Below are positions 26,463 to 31,808 of a DNA stretch of 64,000 nucleotides, in pieces. The position numbers were made by a program, and so were the translations under genes. The notes below the pieces were generated by a model that saw only the letters and a list, made by a program, of their open reading frames with translations, searched no databases and had not been told where the DNA came from. The stretch is from Streptomyces fradiae (GTDB lineage Bacteria > Actinomycetota > Actinomycetes > Streptomycetales > Streptomycetaceae), in NCBI RefSeq assembly GCF_041270065.1, contig NZ_CP065958.1, positions 2,852,001 to 2,916,000 of the forward strand, read 5' to 3'. Positions within the stretch are counted from its first letter, which is position 1, and each line of letters opens with the position of its first letter.

Positions 26463-27267
26463 CCTGCACCACCACCTTCCGCGTCGCCGCCGTCTGCACC
26501 AGCCGCCCCGCAGCGAGCAGCACCACCGCCCAGCAGGCCTGGAAGGCGTACGCGCCGAGCAGTGCCCAGCCCTCGTACCGGCCCAGGTAGACGTCGGCCG
26601 GCACCTGGAGCAGCGAGGCCCAGGGCAGCAGGCGGGCGATCTCGCCGAGGGTGCCGGGGAAGACGTTCAGCGGGAGGAGCATCCCGGAGAAGAACAGGCC
26701 GCCGAGCCAGGCCACCTGGACCACGCCCTGGCCGTCGAGCAGCCAGAAGGCGCTCATCGCGACCAGGTACCAGAGCGCGAAGCTGACGATCGAGCCGAGC
26801 GTGACGGCGAGGAGGAAGGCGAGCCAGGTGCCGGGGCCGGCCGGGAGGGTGAAGTCGAAGACGAGGGAGCCGAAGAGCATGGGGAGGACGCCGCGGCCGA
26901 GCAACTGGTAGGCGGAGCGGCCGAGATTGGCCGAGAACCACCAGGCCTGGAGGTCGGCGGGGCGGTAGAGGTCGACGGCGATGTCGCCGGTCCTGATCCG
27001 TTCGATCAGCTCGTCCTCGAAGCCGCCGCCCATCAGTCCGCAGACGGTGATGAGGCCCTGGCCGAGCCACACATAGGCGAGGGCGTCGGCCTGGGTGTAG
27101 CCGCCGAGGGCGGGACGGGCGTCCCACAGGGCCATATAGGTGTACGACAGGATGAAGCCGAAGACGGTGTTGGTGAACACGCCCGCCGCGGTGGCCACCC
27201 GATAGGTGGCATGGCGCCGGAAGCCACCCGCCGCCACGGTGCCGTAGAGCCGTAACACGTGCCCCAT
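26455..27267 (-). CDS. ABC-2 family permease
   Basis: The first gene of the exporter operon, 270 residues with six hydrophobic segments. The cytosolic segment FEDELIERIRTGDIAVDLYRP is shared in form with its partner (GSFDTFLLRP), consistent with a heterodimeric channel. ATG at 27267 follows GGGGGGACGGGG as ribosome-binding sequence. The promoter would lie in the 147-bp gap that is divergent from the penicillin-binding protein gene. Confidence 0.85.
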   Translation of the reverse strand: MGHVLRLYGTVAAGGFRRHATYRVATAAGVFTNTVFGFILSYTYMALWDARPALGGYTQADALAYVWLGQGLITVCGLMGGGFEDELIERIRTGDIAVDLYRPADLQAWWFSANLGRSAYQLLGRGVLPMLFGSLVFDFTLPAGPGTWLAFLLAVTLGSIVSFALWYLVAMSAFWLLDGQGVVQVAWLGGLFFSGMLLPLNVFPGTLGEIARLLPWASLLQVPADVYLGRYEGWALLGAYAFQACWAVVLLAAGRLVQTAATRKVVVQGG

Positions 27268-27414
27268 CCCCGTCCCCCCTTCCCACCGGCGCCCGCACGC
27301 GCCCGCATCCGCATGCATCCGTTCGCACCAAAGCGCCCGACCTTAGTGGGACCCGAGGAGCGCAGTCGAGTCGTTTTGCGGACTTCCGGCGCCGCGCGTG
27401 CAGGATGTAGTGTT

Positions 27415-29841
27415 ATGTCCCCTTCATCCGGTATGCCCACCAGTGCGGCGGGCGAGACCCTGCCGTCGGAACCGGAGGCCTGGGAGCCCCGCGACCCGAC
27501 CCTCCCACCGCGCCCCGACCAGGCCCGCGCACGCCGTCCCCGCCGTCCCCGCCGCCTCCGCCGCTTCCTCCGGCGCCTGTTCGGCCTCGCCGCGCTCGGC
27601 GTGCTGCTCCTGCTCGGCGGGCTCGTCGCCGGCTACCTCCTCGTGGACGTACCGGCCGCCAACGCCACCGCCGTCGCCCAGTCCAACCTCTTCCTCTACC
27701 GCGACGGAACCCAGCTCGCCCGGGACGGCGAGGTCGACCGCGAGAACGTGAGCCTGGCCCGCGTCCCGCTCGGCGTACAGCGCGCCGTGCTCGCCGCCGA
27801 GGACCGCGACTTCCACACCTCGCAGGCCGTCGACCCGCGCGCGATGGTCCGCGCCACCTGGAACACCCTCACCGGCAAGGGCCGCCAGTCCGGCTCCACC
27901 ATCACCCAGCAGTACGTCAAGAACTACTACCTGGGCCAGGAACAGACCCTCACCCGCAAGGCGAAGGAGTTCTTCATCGCGCTCAAGCTGGGCCGCGAGA
28001 AGAGCAAGGACGAGATCCTCGAGGGCTATCTGAACACCAGTTACTTCGGGCGCAACGCGTACGGCGTGCAGGCCGCCGCCCGCGCCTACTACGGCAAGGA
28101 CGCCCACGCCCTGTCCACCGCCGAGGGCGCGTACCTCGCTTCCCTGCTCAACTCCCCCAACGCGTACGACGTGACCGAGCACCCCGAGAACCGCGACCGG
28201 GTGCTCGCCCGCTGGCGCTACGTCCTGGACGGCATGGTCACCGAGGGCTGGCTCTCCCGGGCCGCCCGCGCCGCCGCCGTCTTCCCCGACCCGCAGCCGG
28301 CCCGCGCCTCCGCCGGTCTGTCCGGACAGCGCGGCTATCTGGTGCAGGCCGTCCGGCAGTACCTCACCGAGCACGGCATCGTCGACGAGAAGACGCTGGC
28401 CGCCGGCGGCTTCCGGATCACCACGACCCTGGAGCGCGCCAAGCAGGACGCCTTCGTGAAGGCCGTCGAGGAGAGCGTGACGGCGAAGCTGGACCCGCGG
28501 CACAACCCCACCGACCGGTTCGTACGGGTCGGGGGCGCGGCCGTCGAACCGGGCTCCGGCCGGATCGTGGCGATCTATGGCGGCATCGACTACACCCGGC
28601 AGTTCGTCAACAACGCCACCCGCCGCGACTACCAGGTCGGCTCGACCTTCAAGCCCTTCGTGCTCGCCTCCGCCCTGCAGAACGGGGCACAGACCCAGGA
28701 GGGCGAGCGGATCACCCCCAACACCGTGTACGACGGGGACAACCGGCGCCCGGTGCAGGGCTGGAACGGGGCGTACTACGACCCGGCGAACGAGGACGAC
28801 GAGAGCTTCGGCCCGATCAGCGTCCGGACGGCCACCGACCGCTCCGTCAACGCGGTGTACGCGCAGATGGCGGTGGACGTCGGCCCGGCCCGGGTGCGCG
28901 ACACCGCCGTGACGCTCGGCCTGCCGGCCCGCACCCCCGACCTCACCGCCACGCCGTCCATCGCGCTCGGCCCGGCCACCGCGAGCGTCCTGGACCTCGC
29001 GCAGGCGTACGCGACGCTCGCGAACCACGGCCGGCACGCCCCGTACACGCTGGTCGAGAAGGTCTCCCGGGACGGCGAGGAGCTGGACCTTCCGGGGTCG
29101 GGGTCGGAGCCGGAGGGCCGTCAGGTGCTGTCCCGCGAGGTCGCCGACACCACGACCTCGGTGCTGCGCAGCGTGGTGCGCGAGGGCACGGGCACGGCGG
29201 CGCTGGCGGCCGGGCGGCCCGCGGCGGGCAAGACGGGCACGGCGGAGGACGACAAGGCGGCCTGGTTCGCCGGCTTCACGCCGGAGCTCGCGACCGTCGT
29301 CGCGATGATGGGCCAGGACCCGGAGACGGGCCGGCAGCTGCCGCTGTACGGGGCGCTCGGCCGGCCGCGGATCAACGGGGGCGGGGAGCCCGCGGAGATC
29401 TGGGCCCGGTTCACGCGGGACGCGCTCGCCGGGGTGCCGGCGAAGGAGTTCGACCTGCGGCTGATGGAGGGCGCGGAGGAGCTGCCGCTGGAGTCGCCGC
29501 CGGCGGACTTCTCCGGTGATCCGTACGGGGCGGGGCAGGGGTACGAGGGGCCCCAGCGTCACCGCGGGAAGGCGCCGGTCACGCCGCACGTACCGCGCCC
29601 GGCGGTACGGGAGCGGGGCGCCGAGCCCGTACGGCCGGAGCCCGTGCGGCCCGCGCAGCCTCCCCGGCAGGCGCCGCAGCCCCTCCAGGCGCCGCCCGCG
29701 CCGCAGCCCGAGCCCGAGCCCGTACCCGTAACACCGACCGAGGCACCCGTGGCGCCGGCGCCCGTCGATACGGGTGCGCCTGGGACGCCCATGACAGCCG
29801 TGGCACCGGCCAGTGACGTCAGTGGCCCGACGTCGCCTTGA
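27415..29841 (+). CDS. Bifunctional penicillin-binding protein (transglycosylase/transpeptidase)
   Basis: A class A PBP of 808 residues that polymerises and cross-links peptidoglycan. A basic cytosolic N-terminus precedes the membrane helix (about 60-82). The GT51 domain has EDRDFHTSQAVDP and GSTITQQYVKN. The transpeptidase domain has STFKPF (catalytic Ser-x-x-Lys), SVN and KTGTAEDD. A Pro/Ala-rich tail of about 100 residues follows. The ATG at 27415 with AGGA upstream fits a short cytosolic tail. Its last 23 bp overlap the convergent gdx gene. Confidence 0.9.
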   Translation: MSPSSGMPTSAAGETLPSEPEAWEPRDPTLPPRPDQARARRPRRPRRLRRFLRRLFGLAALGVLLLLGGLVAGYLLVDVPAANATAVAQSNLFLYRDGTQLARDGEVDRENVSLARVPLGVQRAVLAAEDRDFHTSQAVDPRAMVRATWNTLTGKGRQSGSTITQQYVKNYYLGQEQTLTRKAKEFFIALKLGREKSKDEILEGYLNTSYFGRNAYGVQAAARAYYGKDAHALSTAEGAYLASLLNSPNAYDVTEHPENRDRVLARWRYVLDGMVTEGWLSRAARAAAVFPDPQPARASAGLSGQRGYLVQAVRQYLTEHGIVDEKTLAAGGFRITTTLERAKQDAFVKAVEESVTAKLDPRHNPTDRFVRVGGAAVEPGSGRIVAIYGGIDYTRQFVNNATRRDYQVGSTFKPFVLASALQNGAQTQEGERITPNTVYDGDNRRPVQGWNGAYYDPANEDDESFGPISVRTATDRSVNAVYAQMAVDVGPARVRDTAVTLGLPARTPDLTATPSIALGPATASVLDLAQAYATLANHGRHAPYTLVEKVSRDGEELDLPGSGSEPEGRQVLSREVADTTTSVLRSVVREGTGTAALAAGRPAAGKTGTAEDDKAAWFAGFTPELATVVAMMGQDPETGRQLPLYGALGRPRINGGGEPAEIWARFTRDALAGVPAKEFDLRLMEGAEELPLESPPADFSGDPYGAGQGYEGPQRHRGKAPVTPHVPRPAVRERGAEPVRPEPVRPAQPPRQAPQPLQAPPAPQPEPEPVPVTPTEAPVAPAPVDTGAPGTPMTAVAPASDVSGPTSP

Positions 29842-30139
29842 GGCCGACCACCGCCACCAGCAGCAGACAGACGAAGAAGATCCGGGCGGCGGTCGCCGGC
29901 TCGCCGAGCACCACCATGCCGAGCACCGCCGCACCGGCCGCGCCGATGCCGACCCAGACGCCGTAGGCCGTACCGATGGGGAGGGACTTGGTGGCCTGGG
30001 CGAGCAGCACCATGGAGGCGATGATCCCGGCGACCGTGAAGACGCTCGGCCAGAGGCGGGTGAAGCCCTCGGTGTACTTCATGCCGATGGACCAGCCGAC
30101 TTCGAGCAGACCGGCGAGGACGAGAAGGACCCAGGCCAT
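29819..30139 (-). CDS. gdx: Gdx/SugE-type SMR guanidinium exporter
   Basis: A four-helix SMR transporter of 106 residues. The sequence LAGLLEVGWSIGMKYTEGF contains the essential membrane Glu (residue 13) and the Gdx-type pattern (WxxGxKYTxGFTRLWPS) that separates guanidinium exporters from multidrug EmrE types. A guanidine-III riboswitch lies upstream on the same strand, which strongly supports guanidinium/proton exchange. The ATG at 30139 is chosen over the GTG at 30151, which abuts the GGAGG sequence. Confidence 0.9.
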   Translation of the reverse strand: MAWVLLVLAGLLEVGWSIGMKYTEGFTRLWPSVFTVAGIIASMVLLAQATKSLPIGTAYGVWVGIGAAGAAVLGMVVLGEPATAARIFFVCLLLVAVVGLKATSGH

Positions 30140-30177
30140 GACGACGAACACCTCCGCGAGACGGAATCAACAGGGGT

Positions 30178-30220
30178 GCGTCGTCTTGTCGTGAACCCGG
30201 TACGGCGCGTCTCGTCGGGG
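30178..30220 (-). promoter_or_regulatory. Guanidine-III riboswitch (ykkC-III) upstream of gdx
   Basis: The minus strand reads CCCCGACGAG, then ACGCGCCGTACCGGG, then TTCACGACAAGACGACGC. Remembered guanidine-III aptamers have CCGGACGAG...GCGCCGUACCCGG...GGACAAGACGGCGC, so the CGACGAG, GCGCCGUACC and GACAAGACG blocks match. The G-C pseudoknot strands (CCCGAC/CGGG-type) are preserved. It ends about 38 nt before the gdx start, with GGAGG between, consistent with control of translation. Confidence 0.85.
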
Positions 30221-30247
30221 TGCTTCCACCGTAGCAAAGAACAGGCA

Positions 30248-30279
30248 AAGGCCCTGGTGACACCGGTCACCAGGGCCTT
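30248..30279. terminator. Strong hairpin terminator between groES-like gene and gdx
   Basis: AAGGCCCTGGTGAC, loop ACCG, GTCACCAGGGCCTT form perfect 14-bp arms. On the minus strand the stem is followed by TTGCC. It separates the GroES-like transcription unit from the riboswitch-led gdx unit. Confidence 0.85.
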
Positions 30280-30327
30280 GCGCCATCCGGGCTACAGCAG
30301 CTCTCGCAGGAGCTCTTGCAGCAGCAT

Positions 30328-30663
30328 TTACAAGTACAGGCCGGTCGAGTCCGCGCTCTGGAAACGGTCCGCCGCCACCGCGTGCAGATCGCGCTCGCGC
30401 ATCAGCACATAGGCCACGCCCCGCACCTCGACCTCGGCCCGGTCCTCGGGGTCGTACAGGACCCGGTCGCCGATCTCCACGGTGCGGACGTTCTGCCCGA
30501 CCGCGACGACCTCCGCCCAGGCCAGGCGCCGCCCGACCGCCGCGGTCGCCGGGATCAGGATGCCGCCGCCCGACCGCCGCTCCCCCTCGGGGGTGTCGGT
30601 CCGGACCAGGATCCGGTCGTGGAGCATCCGGATGGGCAGCTTGTCGTGGGTGTTCTCGCTCAC
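30328..30663 (-). CDS. GroES-family co-chaperonin-like protein
   Basis: A 111-residue protein with the Cpn10 fold pattern: PIRMLHDRILVRTD at residues 10-23, a mobile-loop region rich in Gly/Ser (RRSGGGILIP) and VGDRVLYD-like IGDRVLYDPEDRAEVEV. It is a divergent GroES without a groEL gene alongside, so it is probably not the main co-chaperonin. GTG start at 30663; Met13 is an alternative. A strong terminator follows downstream. Confidence 0.8.
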   Translation of the reverse strand: MSENTHDKLPIRMLHDRILVRTDTPEGERRSGGGILIPATAAVGRRLAWAEVVAVGQNVRTVEIGDRVLYDPEDRAEVEVRGVAYVLMRERDLHAVAADRFQSADSTGLYL

Positions 30664-30686
30664 GGGAACGAACCTACCGGCCCGGC

Positions 30687-31007
30687 TCAGTCCTTGTGCC
30701 GCCGGGAGGAGCTCACCAGGAGCCCGATGACGGCGACGGCGACGACCGCCACCGGCACCACGCGCTCCAGGCGCGGCGCGCCGTCGTCATGGGTGAAGCG
30801 GGCCTTCACGTCCGAGACGACCCGGTTGACGGCCACGAACGCGCGGCCGGCGGTGTGGTCGACCTGGGCGGCGACCTTCGCCTTCGCATCCCCGATGATC
30901 GTCTTCGGGTGCATCCGAATGCCGATCTCGTCGAGAGTGACGGCGAGCTGCTCGCGCCGGCGGACGATGTCCGCCTCGATCTGCGCAGGGGTCCTGGCGT
31001 CCGACAC
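30687..31007 (-). CDS. DUF3618 membrane-associated protein
   Basis: A 106-residue DUF3618 protein. Residues 4-40 (RTPAQIEADIVRRREQLA) form the family's charged helix, an amphipathic middle follows, and a C-terminal membrane helix (about 80-100) is followed by SSRRHKD. GTG at 31007 with GGAGG 7 bp upstream defines the start. It is upstream of the GroES-like gene, 23 bp apart. The function is unknown. Confidence 0.85.
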   Translation of the reverse strand: MSDARTPAQIEADIVRRREQLAVTLDEIGIRMHPKTIIGDAKAKVAAQVDHTAGRAFVAVNRVVSDVKARFTHDDGAPRLERVVPVAVVAVAVIGLLVSSSRRHKD

Positions 31008-31724: not shown

Positions 31725-31808
31725 GCGGCCGTGGTGGAATTGGCAGTCACGCTGGGTTTAGGTCCCAGTGGGGTAATACCCGTGGGGGTTCGAGTCCCCC
31801 CGGCCGCA
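31725..31808 (+). tRNA. tRNA-Leu (anticodon UAG)
   Basis: Acceptor arms GCGGCCG (31725-31731) and CGGCCGC (31801-31807) pair fully, with discriminator A. The anticodon stem CTGGG/CCCAG encloses TTTAGGT, giving anticodon TAG that reads CUA. A long variable arm, typical of tRNA-Leu, precedes the T-arm GGGGGTTCGAGTCCCCC. The 3' CCA is not encoded, as is common in Streptomyces. Confidence 0.95.

Follow-up and report, generated by a model that had tools for sequence, protein, structure and literature searches.

The window analysed here, a 64,000-nucleotide stretch of Streptomyces fradiae DNA, carries on its minus strand what its sequence identifies as a true Guanidine-III riboswitch of the ordinary kind in front of a gdx gene, with guanidine binding predicted. 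We consider it very probable that this element turns on translation of a guanidinium exporter, and propose that it does so through the competition of an OFF hairpin with the P2 stem of the aptamer, from a promoter at the aptamer's edge. In this scheme transcription from an extended -10 promoter (30236-30228) would begin where the aptamer has its 5' edge. Without guanidine GACGACGCACC (30185-30175) would pair with GGTGTTCGTCGTC (30152-30140), shutting the region from the Shine-Dalgarno sequence through the bases before the start codon, while with guanidine the same GACGACGCACC strand would be kept in pseudoknot P2 and the ribosome site would be open, so that Gdx would be made and guanidinium pumped out.

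The aptamer and its exporter gene

Covariance scanning with cmscan, a check that the sequence-only reading of this DNA had proposed, matched RF01763 (Guanidine-III) at 30240-30175 of the minus strand with 57.8 bits, above the gathering score of 36, and with an E value of 2.4e-9 (64 kb against 4227 Rfam families). The alignment spans the full model (1-67 of 67), and a local search returns the same match. That earlier reading had given the span 30178-30220, without a strand, and had described three conserved blocks of the ykkC-III aptamer directly before a Gdx-type exporter with GGAGG between. The span turns out to be almost exactly the pseudoknot core, the three blocks are present on the minus strand, and GGAGG (30155-30151) does stand between the aptamer and the ATG at 30139. 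An annotation that includes an Rfam run would pick up such an element. In the whole window the scan against the 4227 families gave two matches at the gathering threshold, the Guanidine-III element and a tRNA gene (31725-31808, plus strand), and no other riboswitch. Covariance searches of the 7.88 Mb genome returned this single RF01763 match and no match to Guanidine-I.

The features of the locus are collected in Table 1. All four pairs of P1 and six of the seven pairs of P2 are standard as read from the sequence, the seventh being a C.A mismatch, and the three ligand-contact positions of Guanidine-III (C 30214, G 30213 and G 30203) are kept. The aptamer shares with that of Thermobifida fusca (5NWQ) the core ACGA(G)...CGUACC...ACAAGACG, the predicted H-type pseudoknot of P1 and P2, the contacts C6, G7 and G17 and an SMR exporter gene downstream, but differs in having C15.A38 and A10 in place of C15-G38 and G10. 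The Guanidine-I, -II and -IV riboswitches have the same ligand and related target genes (excerpts of PMC12186494) and differ from the window's element in their folds.

Table 1. Coordinates of the features discussed; positions are those of the window, except in the last row, where they are those of each locus.
Feature	Position	Strand	Basis and remarks
RF01763 match	30175..30240	-	Covariance search; first ~19 bases probably promoter, not RNA
Inverted repeat, probable terminator of upstream gene	30248..30279	-	Sequence
Extended -10 element TGC-TACGGT (putative)	30228..30236	-	Conservation in relatives
Predicted transcription start, 5' edge of aptamer	30220..30222	-	Position of the putative -10 element
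P1 5' strand CCCG	30216..30219	-	Pairs with 30199-30196; sequence and family structure (excerpts of PMC5696562)
Core and third strand ACGAGAC	30209..30215	-	A10 = 30210; numbering by A5-C6-G7-A8-G9 (excerpts of PMC5696562)
Ligand-contact bases C6, G7	30214, 30213	-	Numbering from excerpts of PMC5696562
P2 5' strand GCGCCGU	30202..30208	-	C15 = 30205; G17 (ligand contact) = 30203
P1 3' strand CGGG	30196..30199	-	Sequence and family structure (excerpts of PMC5696562)
P2 3' strand ACGACGC	30178..30184	-	A38 = 30181, opposite C15 as C.A mismatch
Switch strand GACGACGCACC	30175..30185	-	Common to P2 (ON) and the proposed OFF hairpin
OFF-hairpin partner GGTGTTCGTCGTC (proposed)	30140..30152	-	Shine-Dalgarno to the base before ATG
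Shine-Dalgarno GGAGG	30151..30155	-	Sequence
gdx (sugE)	29819..30139	-	106 aa, predicted SMR-family guanidinium exporter; start ATG 30139, stop 29819
GroES-like (Cpn10) gene, upstream	30328..30663	-	Profile matches
Genes for proteins with a WIHGSPSAKHN..DPD start	L304:241-1122, L305:296-1177, L306:255-1136, L307:275-1153, L310:269-1138, L311:286-1164, L312:297-1211		

The protein encoded by gdx matched PF00893 (SMR) with 98.9 bits (cut-off 23.7) and the NCBIfam SugE model NF008512 with 128.3 bits, just above the cut-off of 126. Its closest PDB match is Gdx-Clo (6WK5; E 2.3e-34; 57% identity), from which it shows no difference at E13, W16, S42, Y59 and W62, all five being present. The roles of these residues in Gdx-Clo are taken from excerpts of PMC7695847, where W16 is described as a conserved residue of Gdx whose counterpart in Qac proteins is G/A. 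Three SMR genes were found in the genome; W16 occurs in the window's gdx only, the other two having A and F at this position, and neither of these has an RF01763 match in the genome search. Guanidinium is very likely the substrate of the window's exporter, and the earlier estimate that the substrate was nearly certain is fair for a prediction drawn from the aptamer together with the Gdx-type residues. The gdx gene overlaps tail to tail by 23 bases (29819-29841) with a penicillin-binding protein gene on the plus strand (27259-29841).

The Guanidine-III element is ordinary and standard for the genus. At E <= 0.001 RF01763 was matched in 249 of 295 same-genus genomes, 243 of them above the cut-off, and a class-wide draw of 296 genomes, which took in same-genus ones, gave 124 with a match. 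The remaining 46 of the 295, about one in six, had no match at E <= 0.001, and when 20 of these were searched again with laxer filters none rose above the cut-off, the best E value being 0.0017. A search of the named collection gave 438 relatives of gdx; the best 80 are all from Streptomyces, the protein of L224 being 100% identical, and the aptamer is present at all 80 loci, 73 recognised by pattern and seven with a longer loop by eye. Streptomyces L250, L252, L265, L277, L283, L288 and L301 have a longer loop between P1 and AAGACG, which reaches about 44 nt in L283.

Guanidine-III copies were also seen before other genes. Six same-genus loci and one from another genus carry a copy whose distance to the gene behind it is about 20 nt; the proteins encoded there resemble each other and have a WIHGSPSAKHN..DPD start (Table 1). 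The proteins of L304, L305, L310 and L312, the four scanned, have a metallo-beta-lactamase fold (PF00753) and stay under the cut-off of every NCBIfam model met; the PF00753 proteins behind these copies are possibly a further guanidine-related enzyme. In two loci of the same genus (L308:315-767 and L309:3731-4258) an above-cut-off RF01763 match precedes a gene for an Ohr-type peroxiredoxin, so called from a scan of L308 (TIGR03561, PF02566) and from the similar start of L309. The AAGACG block is altered in both aptamers, and these may be a variant or a chance match. In another genus (L314:284-1435 and L315:301-1449) the aptamer stands before an arginase-family (PF00491) gene, in agreement with the speB genes reported for ykkC-III in excerpts of PMC2864571.

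The ribosome site and the fate of the mRNA

The leader and the aptamer were compared across 180 loci, of which 110 came from the genus search (the 30 best and the next 80 listed, of the 249 matching genomes) and 70 from the class search (30 listed and 40 picked for genus spread, of the 124 matching genomes). The core is to be expected in these loci because all of them were found by the RF01763 model. Orientation by pattern succeeded for 178 (L035 and L174 were left out), and 25 of the 178 were dropped as having no recognised start or strand pattern, which leaves 153: 82 loci with the window's core sequence, all of the same genus and here called type A, and 71 others. It should be noted that the 5' half of the core is part of the pattern that defines type A; invariance there, and A10 with it, thus holds by construction, whereas A38 is not fixed in this way. 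Swap tests used 151 loci (L142 and L179 left out), the base-triple count 172 (six of the 178 skipped) and the alignment of leaders 72 of the 79 distinct type A leaders. Permutations were made by genus or family, using the labels that came with the genus and class searches, with the tree not modelled.

According to excerpts of PMC12186494 and PMC5696562, class III riboswitches turn translation on, and their folding should free the ribosome site. As expected for such a switch, the last aptamer strand is complementary to the stretch that runs from the Shine-Dalgarno sequence up to the start (GACGACGCACC against GGTGTTCGTCGTC), and the minimum free energy fold predicted for the leader contains the OFF hairpin; compared with its shuffles, the whole leader shows no extra stability (z -0.93 and -0.56). 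GGAGG lies 22 nt past P2, and its distance of 11 nt from the ATG is rather long. The computed duplex between the window's switch strand and its own Shine-Dalgarno-to-start bases has -17.5 kcal/mol, a value reached by none of 49 control GGAGG sites of other genes in 464 kb of the same genome (mean -7.0 kcal/mol). At most 5% of the 49 controls equal the own site in 71 of the 82 type A relatives, and more than 5% do so in the other 11. In the models, opening the Shine-Dalgarno-to-start region of the window costs 15.7 kcal/mol when the strand is free and 9.3 when the aptamer is locked; over the 82 loci the means are 13.4 and 9.0 kcal/mol, a difference of 4.4, as against -0.5 kcal/mol when foreign ribosome sites are swapped in. 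The native difference exceeds the mean of 15 foreign ones in all 82 loci. It is 2 kcal/mol or more in 66 and under 2 in 16, and it is negative in three (L130, L123 and L066).

Covariation across genera is unsupported for the OFF hairpin, because own pairs did no better than swapped ones (median p 0.29) when the swap test was restricted to a single locus from each genus (32 groups), and type A is unable to test it because the aptamer strand hardly varies there. In swap tests made without correction for kinship, the mean of the own pairs was reached in 0 of 5000 permutations for all 96 unique pairs, in 1 of 5000 for the 64 outside type A and in 197 of 5000 for the 32 of type A. The type A loci with the weakest pairing at the start region (L091, L119, L123 and L130) have the complement in the linker instead (shuffle p 0.01-0.04). 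Two further candidates were rejected: a second OFF element formed by the aptamer's 5' strand and the linker before the Shine-Dalgarno sequence (-11.4 against -10.0 kcal/mol for shuffled sequences, p <= 0.05 in 8 of 82 loci), and pairing of the switch strand with the linker as a general feature (-7.0 against -5.9 kcal/mol, 9 of 82 loci).

The modelled accessibility of the Shine-Dalgarno sequence itself is nearly the same in both states in most loci. Its mean unpaired probability over the 82 loci goes from just 0.23 to 0.29 (0.20 to 0.46 in the window), rising by more than 0.1 in 25 loci and falling in 18. This would suit a Guanidine-III switch that acts mainly through mRNA stability: with ligand bound, the pseudoknot at the 5' terminus would block a ribonuclease that scans from the 5' end, and access for the ribosome would stay about equal. 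Such an effect would also be in keeping with a review (excerpts of PMC12186494) that reports protection of the mRNA by the class III aptamer against RNase E scanning, and with the predicted start, which puts the aptamer at the 5' end of the mRNA in most type A loci. We nevertheless regard it as rather unlikely to be the main effect, since the cost of opening the ribosome site shifts by several kcal/mol on average and no such shift is seen with foreign sites. The two effects can act jointly.

Putative promoter and 5' end

Where the RF01763 model has a 5' hairpin, the window has an apparent -10 element, TGC-TACGGT (30236-30228), of the extended type by its consensus. Among the 82 type A loci TTGCTANNNT is found in 75 and TTGNTANNNT in 2 more, so that 77 of these close relatives carry TTGNTANNNT and five have neither. 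In 71 of the 77 the last T of the element is followed after 7-9 nt by the C run of P1, and the pattern of conservation, which leaves the middle three positions free, matches a -10 element. Only 12 of the 77, among them the window, have the AGCA with which the element would form the Rfam 5' hairpin. Because of this conservation and position, and because AGCA is rarely kept, we read TGC-TACGGT as an extended -10 element with a start at 30220-30222, and the stretch aligned by Rfam as a 5' hairpin looks like a promoter. It could still be that the hairpin (30236-30221) is real RNA, with a promoter further upstream and a transcript starting before 30240: TGCT and AGCA can pair in the window, and in L094 and L134 a possible hairpin lies between the aptamer and a -10-like element 33-34 nt upstream, as it does by eye in other lineages too. 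Given how seldom AGCA is kept, and that conservation follows the pattern of a -10 element, this seems improbable to us. A pattern scan for sigma-70 promoters and terminators found nothing, which says little in a GC-rich genus.

An inverted repeat at 30248-30279 is presumably the terminator of the GroES-like gene (30328-30663), and a GGTG..GTCACC inverted repeat is found upstream in 66 of the 82 type A loci. Against this, the pattern scan lists no terminator at 30248-30279, as the repeat has no T run. Downstream, a switch acting on transcription by a ligand-controlled terminator or Rho, and not on translation, would resemble Guanidine-I and -IV, which act on transcription (excerpts of PMC12186494). 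It is very improbable here, as a simple pattern scan of 30100-30700 on both strands found no terminator-like site and the stretch from aptamer to ATG is just 38 nt long. The idea that the RF01763 match arose by chance or marks a decayed relic can be dismissed in view of the E value of 2.4e-9 and the matches in 249 of 295 same-genus genomes.

A proposed variant base triple in P2

In T. fusca the third strand forms the triples C16-G37.G9, C15-G38.G10 and G14-C39.U11 (excerpts of PMC5696562). In the window A10, C15 and A38 stand at the second of these, with the C.A mismatch in P2. The C.A form is present in 96 of the 172 loci counted, always with A10, and it extends over eight genera in three families. 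A10 occurs with A38 in 98 of 98 loci. In 82 of these, the type A loci, A10 follows from the way the group was defined; subtracting them leaves 16 A10 loci, and A38 is found in all 16. In the same 172 loci G10 occurs with G38 in 53 of 57 cases, C10 with G38 in 10 of 10 and U10 with A38 in 4 of 7. Counted per genus, 43 of 49 distinct combinations from 38 genera fit the pairing rules (A with A, G or C with G, U with A) against 27.1 expected, and per family 27 of 33 from 18 families against 18.0; neither value was reached in 10,000 permutations, a result that is somewhat flattering since the rules were chosen post hoc. At the family level A10 goes with A38 in 5 of 5 combinations (p 0.0006). The Rfam alignment does not flag the C.A as a bad pair, so sequences of this form are probably within the family already.

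Judged by these sequences, the covariation of bases 10 and 38 is that of a base triple, and a C.A.A in the window replaces the C-G.G of the solved structure. More tentatively, and with less than even confidence, we suggest that Streptomyces and several other actinobacterial genera may have a variant aptamer in which the C-G.G triple of P2 has become C.A.A, the Watson-Crick pair being given up while 10 and 38 covary. The mismatch would weaken the ligand-free P2 and so release the strand that closes the ribosome site, and a protonated A+.C could give pH sensitivity. No description of the 10/38 coupling was found in the literature searched, to which the original class III report did not belong, and the OFF pairing, the promoter or the mismatch may have been described before.

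Beyond a known type of switch, the locus offers a better-defined anatomy and one structural variation, the C.A.A triple. The covarying 10/38 triple would be a natural test of the triplex in the crystal structure, and the keeping of a mismatch across genera raises the question of how ligand dependence is tuned. If it is true that the 5' hairpin of Rfam is a promoter, the aptamer would occupy the first nucleotides of the mRNA, where an effect on decay is directly testable. For the organism, the predicted riboswitch of the window would offer a native guanidine sensor.
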